From assembly GCF_000971295.1 (NCBI RefSeq), contig NZ_LANJ01000047.1, forward strand, positions 62,001 through 126,000: DNA of 64,000 nt, read 5' to 3'. The position numbers and the translations under genes are program-made. Below the pieces are notes generated by a model. The model was not told the origin of the DNA. It searched no databases and was given only the letters and a program-made list of their open reading frames with translations. This document shows, piece after piece, positions 9,519-62,916 of this stretch. Position 1 is the first letter of the stretch. The number at the start of each line of letters is the position of its first letter. Source of the DNA: Devosia epidermidihirudinis. GTDB taxonomy: Bacteria; Pseudomonadota; Alphaproteobacteria; Rhizobiales; Devosiaceae.

Positions 9519-9594
9519 GCCGCATTAGCTCAGTTGGTAGAGCACATCATTCGTAATGATGGGGTCAGGTGTTCGAGTCACCTATGCGGCACCA
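9519..9594 (+). tRNA. tRNA-Thr, anticodon CGT
   Basis: A full cloverleaf can be folded: acceptor GCCGCAT with ATGCGGC, D-arm AGCTCAGTTGGTAGAGCA, anticodon stem CATCA/TGATG with loop TTCGTAA (anticodon CGT), T-arm GGTGTTCGAGTCACC, discriminator A and an encoded CCA end. It decodes ACG. It begins only 13 bases after the hemY stop codon, so it may be processed from the hem operon transcript or have its own promoter inside hemY. Confidence 0.97.
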
Positions 9595-35346: not shown

Positions 35347-35637
35347 TTACGGGAAGTACGGATAGCCATAGCGCACGATCAGCTGCTGGATGAAGAAGAT
35401 GCCCAGAAACAGGATGATGGGCGAAATATCGAGCCCGGAGAAATTGGGCATGACGCGACGGATCGGCCGCAGCAGCGGTTCGGTCAATTGGTTGACCACG
35501 CGCCAGACCGCCTCGACGAACTGATTGCGGGTATTGATGACATTGAACGAAATCAGCCAGCTCATGATGATCATGATGAGCAGAACCCACCAGTAGAGCT
35601 GGAGGATTACCATTATCACATCCAGAACGGCCTTCAT
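35347..35637 (-). CDS. YggT-family membrane protein
   Basis: A 96-residue protein with two hydrophobic regions and the family core VINTRNQFVEAVWRVVNQLT and EPLLRPIRRVMPNFSGLDIS. YggT proteins are linked to osmotic shock tolerance or divisome/membrane protein assembly in other bacteria, with no agreed activity. ATG 35637 has an AGGAG ribosome site. First gene of a pair with the GNAT gene. Confidence 0.93.
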   Translation of the reverse strand: MKAVLDVIMVILQLYWWVLLIMIIMSWLISFNVINTRNQFVEAVWRVVNQLTEPLLRPIRRVMPNFSGLDISPIILFLGIFFIQQLIVRYGYPYFP

Positions 35638-35708
35638 CGCAGTCTCCTGTTGAATGGGCATTTATCTAATGGGTTGATGGCCTTGCCACAAGGGCTAGCG
35701 CCACAAGC

Positions 35709-35840
35709 AAAAGAGCCCCTTACCGGGCAAAACGGTTCGGGGCTCCAATGACTGACATCCGGTACGCACAACAAAACTCCGGATACGCCCTCAATTGCAC
35801 GAAGCGTGCCAAGTCGGTGCGGCCGGCAAACCGGGGCTCA
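35709..35840 (-). ncRNA. Candidate structured small RNA with intrinsic terminator
   Basis: Read on the minus strand this 130-base stretch can fold into successive hairpins: CCGG-tttg-CCGG, GCACG-ctt-CGTGC, ATCCGG/CCGGAT with a 16-base loop, then a terminator GAGCCCC...GGGGCTC-TTTT. The 8-mer GAGCCCCG occurs twice (5' end, complement at 35832-35839, and 5' arm of the terminator, 35738-35745), but there is only one GGGGCTC, so two mutually exclusive closing stems are possible. No open frame with a ribosome site. It could be an independent sRNA, the 3' end of the dedA mRNA, or a leader of yggT. Confidence 0.5.
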
Positions 35841-35948
35841 GAAGTTAAGGTGTTGTAAAAATAAGCGTTTTAGCAGCGAGGCTGCATTGCAAAATGCGAG
35901 GCGGGTTGCAGAATGCGAGCGGCAAGCGGTGTCGCCACTCCTGCGTCC

Positions 35949-36095
35949 CCTCGCCCCTCAGGGGAGAGGGTAGCGACGCCGGGAGCCTTGGCGACCTGGC
36001 AAAGCTAGGGTGAGGGGTGCCGTTTCTCGGCTCGAGCCGAAACATTGCACCCCTCACCCGGCGCTACGCGCCGACCTCTCCCCTGAGGGGCGAGG
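35949..36095. repeat. Compound inverted-repeat element
   Basis: Two exact 21-base inverted arms (35949-35969 and 36075-36095, core CTCGCCCCTCAGGGGAGAG) enclose a second, nested palindrome of 52 bases: GGGTGAGGGGTGC (36008-36020) and its exact complement (36047-36059) around TCGGCTCGAGCCGA (36027-36040), all centred at the same point. With the RNA candidate it fills the gene-free interval 35638-36112. The stop codon of dedA is only 18 bases beyond. It resembles a REP/BIME-type mobile repeat. Confidence 0.75.
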
Positions 36096-36112
36096 TGAAG
36101 TGGTGGCGTGGA

Positions 36113-36721
36113 CTACGCCCGGGCCTTGCTCGGCTTCCAGGTCGCGACTTTGAGCAGGTAGAGCACGATCACCAGACCCAGCACGATGTAGCTCAGCGGG
36201 TCGAGCACAACCTCGATGACCTCGTAATGCTCGTGCAGGATGTATCCCGCCATGGTGAGGAAGATGTTCCAGATCAGCGCACCAGTGGTCGAGGCGGCGA
36301 GGAACACCGGCAGGCTCATACGCGACAGGCCCGCGGGAATGGAAATCAGCGTGCGGATCAGCGGGATCAGGCGACCAAACAGCACGATGATGGGCCCGAA
36401 GCGTTTGAACCACCCCACCGCCAGATCGATTTCGTCGGCATTGAAAGCCATGACGCGACCGAAACGGTCGGCCAGCCAGCGCACGCGATCAAGCCCGAAC
36501 AGGCGCCCGGCATAATACCAGGGCAGCATGCCGACAACGGCGCCGATGGTGGCGGCGGCCAGCACGCCAAAAAGATTGAGATCGCCATTGGCAGCGGCAT
36601 AGCCGGCAAAGGGAATGATCAGCTCGGACGGGATGGGCGGAAAGATCGATTCCGCCAGCATCACCATAAAGATGCCGACATAGCCCCAGTCGGAAATGGT
36701 CTGGATGATCCAGTCTGTCAT
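36113..36721 (-). CDS. DedA-family membrane protein
   Basis: A 202-residue polytopic protein of the DedA/SNARE-associated (VTT) family, implicated in lipid carrier recycling and membrane homeostasis. Seen: ESIFPPIPSELIIPFAGYAA, the GALVGMLPWYYAGRLFG-type segment, and FGRLIPLIRTLISIPAGLSR with the functionally needed arginines. ATG 36721 follows AGGAG. Which phospholipid it moves cannot be told. Confidence 0.95.
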   Translation of the reverse strand: MTDWIIQTISDWGYVGIFMVMLAESIFPPIPSELIIPFAGYAAANGDLNLFGVLAAATIGAVVGMLPWYYAGRLFGLDRVRWLADRFGRVMAFNADEIDLAVGWFKRFGPIIVLFGRLIPLIRTLISIPAGLSRMSLPVFLAASTTGALIWNIFLTMAGYILHEHYEVIEVVLDPLSYIVLGLVIVLYLLKVATWKPSKARA

Positions 36722-62745: not shown

Positions 62746-62916
62746 CAACCCCATTCATCAGGCCTTGCTCCTGACCAGCCGACCGGGACCCTTAGTGGTA
62801 TAAACCGATCCCGGAGGCCACCATCCGCCAGCGCGTTGCGCCCGCGGGTGTGCTTGGCGTTTGGACTGATGGATCCTATGTCTCGCGGTACAATCCGCAG
62901 AGAAGGACCAAAAAGT

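Follow-up and report, generated by a model that had tools for sequence, protein, structure and literature searches.

The Qrr RNAs of Vibrionaceae are short intergenic RNAs with four hairpins. Their genes combine a sigma-54 -24/-12 promoter and an activator of the LuxO family with TTGCA-N3-TGCAA sites, one or two per promoter, farther upstream. These RNAs depend on Hfq, are expressed at low cell density and pair with luxR/hapR-type and luxO mRNAs. GlmY/GlmZ, CrcZ and NrsZ are further sRNAs driven by an enhancer-binding protein together with sigma-54, as proposed for the Devosia candidate described here; their activators are different, and their RNA is unrelated to the Devosia one. The accessible text of three papers gives TTGCA-N3-TGCAA as the site for LuxO in the qrr promoters of Vibrio (PMC3352281, PMC10162802, PMC11443567); in V. 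fluvialis, the qrr LuxO sites are located between -89 and -120, and close pairs were linked by the authors to the strongest promoters (PMC11443567). The sigma-54 consensus is quoted as YTGGCACG-N4-TTGCWNN (PMC3352281). Among alphaproteobacterial sRNAs, the alphaR8 family (MmgR, SisA-D) resembles the Devosia candidate in occurring mostly as one copy beside a fixed neighbour, but that neighbour is an N-formylglutamate amidohydrolase-type gene, the family carries a characteristic 10-mer, and SisA-D have no common promoter motif in the accessible part of the source (PMC12559287). A literature search from which subscription papers were mostly absent returned no LuxO/Qrr-type system for Alphaproteobacteria, Rhizobiales or Devosia sRNAs.

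The window, which is the whole 64,000-nt stretch of Devosia epidermidihirudinis DNA analysed here, probably encodes a ~77-nt Qrr-like sRNA under LuxO-type, sigma-54 control that falls outside the Qrr family. One feature by which Qrr family members are recognized, a sigma-54 promoter with TTGCA-N3-TGCAA-like sites upstream, is present at the locus, and so is a predicted short intergenic RNA with hairpins. In contrast to the Vibrionaceae Qrr RNAs, the Devosia RNA has two hairpins rather than four, one strong match per genome, which in this genome does not share a contig with the luxO-like gene, and a host in a different class (Devosiaceae, Alphaproteobacteria). The Qrr covariance model finds no match up to E 10 in the window (35400-36100) and none up to E 1 in the loci of 15 relatives.

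Organization of the locus

The locus lies on the minus strand between dedA (end at 36113) and yggT (start at 35637), and at 35709-35840 the ORF list holds nothing but short overlapping frames. From 5′ to 3′ on the minus strand, the features are:

35906..35918, minus strand: distal site TCGCATTCTGCAA, LuxO-site-like by its match to TTGCA-N3-TGCAA, centre at about -127
35887..35899, minus strand: proximal site TCGCATTTTGCAA, matching TTGCA-N3-TGCAA, centre at about -108, 19 bp from the distal site
35797..35811, minus strand: sigma-54 -24/-12 element TGGCACGCTTCGTGC, by match to the consensus, conserved
35785, minus strand: predicted transcription start (+1), placed from the -24/-12 position, 12 nt past the -12 C
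35709..35785, minus strand: predicted small RNA, ~77 nt, two hairpins, from fold, covariation and covariance model, with both ends predicted
35756..35785, minus strand: hairpin 1, conserved loop GU..UGCGUA, 6 pairs with 100% of cells paired, 2 of them with two-sided changes
35747..35755, minus strand: linker, whose AGUCAU core is kept by most of the Devosia rows in alignment A1 and not by more distant genera
35709..35746, minus strand: hairpin 2 followed by TTTT, a probable terminator, with two-sided changes at 11 of the 13 hairpin pairs
35663..35692, minus strand: yggT promoter-like sequence CTTGTGG...TAGATA, conserved in loci with and without the RNA
35347..35637, minus strand: yggT, the downstream gene (ORF)

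Other elements of the window are a large near-perfect palindrome between dedA and the RNA (35946-36097; CCCCTCACCC / GGGTGAGGGG type), which draws chance microRNA matches in Rfam and looks like a dispersed repetitive palindrome, an Rfam ffh sRNA match above the gathering score (62807-62858, plus strand), and a tRNA-Thr gene (9519-9594, plus strand).

The sigma-54 promoter and its upstream sites

The element TGGCACGCTTCGTGC, read from 35811 to 35797 on the minus strand, differs by one base from the sigma-54 consensus TGGCACG-N4-TTGC. Bases just 3′ of this box are variable, and a conserved block restarts at the predicted +1, 35785. The count covers 73 of 80 yggT loci, of which 40 have a sigma-54 box in the 420 nt preceding yggT; these are 40 of 50 Devosia-type loci and 0 of 23 others, where the Devosia-type group (L036-L082, L091, L095 and L105) was formed by title and similarity and includes some Maritalea, Arsenicitalea and Pelagibacterium.

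Further upstream, each of the two window sites deviates by one base from TTGCA-N3-TGCAA, and the form searched across relatives was YYGCANNNTGCRR. In the 180 bp that precede the box, one or more such sites occur in 39 of 41 loci and at least two in 28 of 41, compared with 0.8% and 0% of shuffled upstream sequences; a perfect TTGCA-N3-TGCAA is found in 15 of the 41 loci with a box. Site centres across these loci cluster at about -127, -108 and -83, with 19 bp as the commonest spacing. Over the entire window, single YYGCANNNTGCRR sites show no excess (3, with a shuffle mean of 3.15), and the case for the putative LuxO-like sites is one of pairs, place and conservation rather than of single sites. 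By eye, two further features recur in many of L036-L082: a CCCGGTTT..CGGG dyad that precedes the -24 element by ~12-30 bp, and an IHF-like stretch, rich in A+T, that separates the activator sites from the box.

Structure and covariation of the RNA

Folding calculations place the structural signal downstream of the predicted start. In particular, the 79-nt fold from the predicted +1 has a z-score of -3.39 with 0 of 200 shuffles as good, and the RNAs of six relatives have fold z-scores from -1.88 to -6.02. Over the longer span proposed in the initial annotation, the 151-nt fold has a z-score of -0.97 (35 of 200 shuffles as good) and the 136-nt fold a z-score of -1.76 (9 of 200); the whole span is not clearly better folded than shuffles, and an excess appears only from the predicted +1 onward. 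That span consists of a promoter part and an RNA part. Its pre-terminator and terminator hairpins are real and conserved; its first two hairpins fall outside the predicted RNA, the second (GCACGCTTCGTGC) being the sigma-54 -24/-12 element and the first lying upstream of that element.

Alignment of relatives contains the compensatory changes expected of a structured RNA between dedA and yggT, as had been proposed. RNAalifold on 41 sequences yields two hairpins, and 16 of their 19 pairs show two-sided changes. In alignment A2, which comprises 33 of the 41 sequences (32 distinct; L045 and seven distant loci excluded), 97.0% of the cells are paired, and two-sided changes are seen at 13 of 19 pairs. 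Four of five covariation measures on A2 were reached by 0 of 500 shuffles and the fifth by 1 of 500, where the shuffles leave relatedness in place uncorrected; sliding the structure along the alignment, a control that preserves relatedness, left 25-51% of cells paired.

The most constant unpaired element of the RNA is the hairpin-1 loop, GU..UGCGUA. It can pair with the start of the luxO-like gene in the window genome, whereas inspection by eye of 40 other luxO-like starts gave no evident pairing of this kind; as a target, luxO was set aside, its score of -14.1 being unremarkable against a best of -23.8 among the 289 ORF starts scored. A candidate outer stem between the AGUCAU core and the 3′ flank was also rejected: at least 5 pairs form in 16 of 34 sequences, compared with 36% of shuffles, and the means are equal.

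The Rfam covariance search that the initial annotation had suggested returned no family for 35709-35840, at the gathering score or up to E 10, and none matching the window RNA up to E 10 when 35400-36100 was searched. Across the loci of 15 relatives, the sole Rfam match overlapping the RNA is Hrs10, on the other strand, at a chance-level E of 0.87.

Distribution of the RNA

A covariance model, R1, was built from A2 and evaluated on the window and 41 of the 80 yggT loci. It recovers 7 of 7 left-out loci with a box (E from 2e-13 to 2e-4) and does not exceed 10.2 bits in any of 33 loci that have no box. The D. riboflavina locus (L050) is among those that carry the RNA. Across 136 genomes of the family, 88 have a match of at least 34 bits, with one strong match each among the matches listed; 127 of the 136 have something at E 0.1 or better, where the matches of ~22-32 bits look like background. 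Across 397 genomes of the order, R1 finds four genomes outside the family at E 1e-4 or better, with scores of 29.6-38.1 bits. Three of these weak matches, in another family (L178, L179 and L180; three species of one genus), keep the hairpin-1 loop, do not stand beside yggT and show no sigma-54 box of the usual kind. The fourth, L181, was rejected; it is without the loop and looks like a terminator. L178-L180 have a hairpin close in sequence to UCCGGGAU..UGUACUGCGUACCCGGA together with a terminator-like hairpin, and L179 and L180 have a conserved upstream block in common.

A LuxO-like activator and its co-occurrence with the RNA

The genome has eight matches to the sigma-54 activator family, two of which are weak and by eye lie in Clp-like ATPases, leaving six full activators. 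Five of the six have GAFTGA; NtrX is without it, and was rejected as the activator of the RNA for that reason. FlbD, NtrC and NtrX exceed their own NCBIfam cut-offs.

The candidate activator, P0002, is encoded on a different contig from the RNA (G000:C41:174698-176173, minus strand). Its best NCBIfam model is LuxO, at 461.7 bits with the next at 341.8, a score that falls short of the curated cut-off of 800 for NF041946 (LuxO). Similarly, its best PDB match is LuxO 5ep0, with 340 bits compared with 265 for the best non-LuxO structure, and the two proteins are 46% identical over 356 residues. P0002 has the set of features that marks a LuxO, which is a receiver Asp, an AAA+ domain with GAFTGA and a LuxO-type HTH; in the alignment, by eye, the Thr next in the LuxO receiver is not kept. 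Its HTH fragment alone matches LuxO at 49.5 bits and everything else at 16 or less. The HTH fragment of a second activator, the AtoC/TacA-like P0001, has LuxO as its second-best match (29.8 bits), and the NtrC fragment scores 13 against LuxO. An unrooted tree splits P0002 from the five other activators at 0.999; it also places P0002, on a long branch, outside the group of LuxO and alphaproteobacterial LuxO-like proteins and on the other activators' side (0.93). The tree and the P0001 HTH match weigh against a plain LuxO assignment. Because of the sub-cut-off score, the HTH matches and the tree placement, P0002 is best described as a divergent LuxO-like protein, not LuxO. The LuxO pathway includes a LuxU phosphotransferase and autoinducer kinases; no obvious kinase was seen by eye among the translated ORFs in 14 kb around the P0002 gene. 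Upstream of the luxO-like gene in Devosia (L225 and L266-L303), a conserved AACGG...TTTACCCT block was noticed by eye, possibly an operator or promoter.

The presence of P0002 tracks that of the RNA. Over the 136 family genomes, 97 have both, 15 have P0002 only, 1 has the RNA only and 23 have neither; among the 120 genomes at least 90% complete, the corresponding counts are 91, 10, 0 and 19. The sole RNA-only genome, G132, is 71% complete. Here, P0002 presence means at least 450 bits, plus G019 and G106, which have fragments below 450 bits only; a strict count that takes these two as lacking P0002 gives 95/15/3/23 of 136 and 89/10/2/19 of 120. The 98 RNA-positive genomes were assigned by score (88), by inspection of box and site (3), or by sequence pattern and appearance (7). 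Within genera, 15 of 19 genomes of g29 are without both, 2 have both and 2 have P0002 only, and 5 of 5 genomes of g40 are without both. As a control, P0001 is unassociated with the RNA (90/29/1/0 among the 120 genomes at least 90% complete), with presence taken at E 1e-100 and with the weakest matches, of ~380 bits, possibly being paralogues. This co-occurrence is read as support, not proof, since Fisher values ignore phylogeny. The RNA persists in three genomes with a broken or split luxO-like gene: G106 (contig C63, with four stops in the match), G019 and G094.

These data bear on an alternative in which the RNA is a sigma-54 sRNA with a different activator, whether NtrC, P0001 or a SypG-like paralogue. 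The six activators of the genome, five of them with GAFTGA, offer candidates; the P0001 HTH fragment also matches LuxO, P0002 stands outside the LuxO group in the tree, and SypG sites overlap the LuxO sites of qrr1 in the accessible text of PMC10162802. However, P0001 also occurs in genera without the RNA, being present in 29 of 29 genomes that are at least 90% complete and have no RNA, and the YYGCANNNTGCRR site was not found at glnK, at glnB or at the urease box. At glnK and glnB, a wider search gave single, mostly distant, related matches, and at the urease box (L130) one related TTGCGCATCGCAA was seen by eye; NtrC was rejected as the activator for want of such a site at these three places. 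Overall, a different activator for the RNA is unlikely, while keeping a real share of the probability.

Relation of the RNA to yggT

A second alternative is that the structure serves yggT as a 5′ leader or attenuator driven by sigma-54, in which hairpin 2 controls read-through and a separate RNA is of no account. yggT is 3′ of the RNA in 41 of 41 loci found with R1, 39 of them at a distance of 64-129 nt, and dedA is 5′ in just 28 of 41 (the 41 loci being the 30 best family matches and 11 chosen stretches, out of 98 RNA-positive genomes). The T tract after hairpin 2 is short in many relatives, which is a reason why read-through from the RNA into yggT is possible. In contrast, 36 of 40 loci with the RNA have a CTTG...TAGATA sequence separating it from yggT, and such a sequence stands upstream of yggT in 10 of 10 loci without it, compared with 0.03 and 0 in shuffles, for a pattern that was written after viewing the same sequences. 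Because this promoter-like sequence stands between the two, the RNA looks like a separate unit ahead of a yggT promoter. Further, the conserved 5′ hairpin and loop would be unnecessary for attenuation, and a weak hairpin homologue lies away from yggT in three genomes of another family. Attenuation of yggT is disfavoured by the separate promoter-like sequence and quite unlikely; it is kept as a rival since the linkage to yggT is complete.

The remaining alternative is the one put forward in the initial annotation, a 6S-type or attenuator switch with two competing closing stems in one long RNA. The letters behind it were reported correctly: on the minus strand, the 8-mer GAGCCCCG occurs twice (35839-35832 and 35745-35738), GGGGCTC is present in a single copy (35719-35713) and TTTT follows at 35712-35709. 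Pairing in which the 5′ copy of GAGCCCCG competes with the terminator 5′ arm is extremely unlikely to be functional: the complementarity is present in the window, but that copy lies upstream of the -24 element, is unconserved and occurs in 1 of 32 scored sequences, the window itself, the long folds fall within the shuffle range, and yggT has its separate promoter-like sequence. The scored set is 32 of 41 sequences, with 9 that are without an exact arm left unscored, and an upstream copy of at least 7 nt of the hairpin-2 5′ arm occurs in 0 of the 31 scored relatives. Because the upstream copy is present in 1 of 32 sequences, the repeat looks like chance. In the window and its relatives, 6S RNA and attenuators were sought and gave neither an Rfam match nor conserved alternative stems.

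A proposed Qrr-like circuit

The reading of the locus as a Qrr-like sRNA gene under LuxO-type control starts from what is visible in the DNA: the promoter element, the upstream sites, a conserved two-hairpin RNA, the activator gene and its co-occurrence with the RNA. In the mechanism we infer, sigma-54 RNA polymerase would transcribe the ~77-nt RNA from 35785 on the minus strand, and the LuxO-like response regulator P0002 would bind the tandem TTGCA-N3-TGCAA-like sites ~108 and ~127 bp upstream, turning on the RNA. The sequence of events would resemble that of Vibrio Qrr, in which a phosphorylated activator leads through DNA looping to a sigma-54 open complex and to a short RNA that acts on other mRNAs. 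The RNA would then pair with regulated targets through its hairpin-1 loop or its linker. Against this reading stand the P0002 score below the cut-off, the placement of P0002 in the tree, the 15 of 112 P0002 genomes without the RNA and the 1 of 24 in the reverse state (G132). The RNA may also have a role in cis on yggT, which would be compatible with the complete linkage in 41 of 41 loci.

LuxO-type sites in other Alphaproteobacteria

LuxO-like proteins of other Alphaproteobacteria are 52-61% identical to LuxO over the receiver and AAA+ part (24 examined). Among 385 genomes of the class, 29, the window's included, match P0002 with an E of 1e-110 or better. A sigma-54 box preceded at 60-90 bp by a TGCA-N3-TGCRA site occurs in 9, and 3 genomes are in both sets; this combined pattern is so strict that the promoter of the window itself escapes it. 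Six of these nine promoters stand before protein ORFs, one of them ~3 kb from its luxO-like gene, and one (G529) lies inside ribosomal-protein genes and is probably a chance match. At L230 (G626) and L234 (G720), a LuxO-type site and sigma-54 box are followed by intergenic, sRNA-like stretches with multiple hairpins, judged by folds and ORFs, making these loci candidate LuxO-type sRNAs that are unrelated in sequence to the Devosia RNA. At L227 (G755), a LuxO-type site and sigma-54 box are found just 3′ of an activator-like gene and before a 193-aa ORF. R1 finds no match near the class-level LuxO sites and LuxO-like genes (17 loci), and for that reason RNA homology is not claimed there; in Rfam, the class-level loci give a single match, a chance one to a fly family.

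Implications

If the reading is true, the Devosiaceae have a LuxO/sigma-54 module built with an unrelated RNA, and Devosia and its relatives would gain a signal-driven sRNA switch like that of Vibrio quorum sensing, whose RNA has no match among the Rfam families. It is conceivable, with the balance tilting slightly towards doubt, that the LuxO/sigma-54/sRNA module is a wider proteobacterial design and not a Vibrio invention, in which the regulator, the sites and the logic are kept and the RNA is exchanged. The Devosia locus thereby raises the question of whether the LuxO-Qrr design exists outside the Vibrionaceae, and whether its RNA is exchangeable while the control stays.
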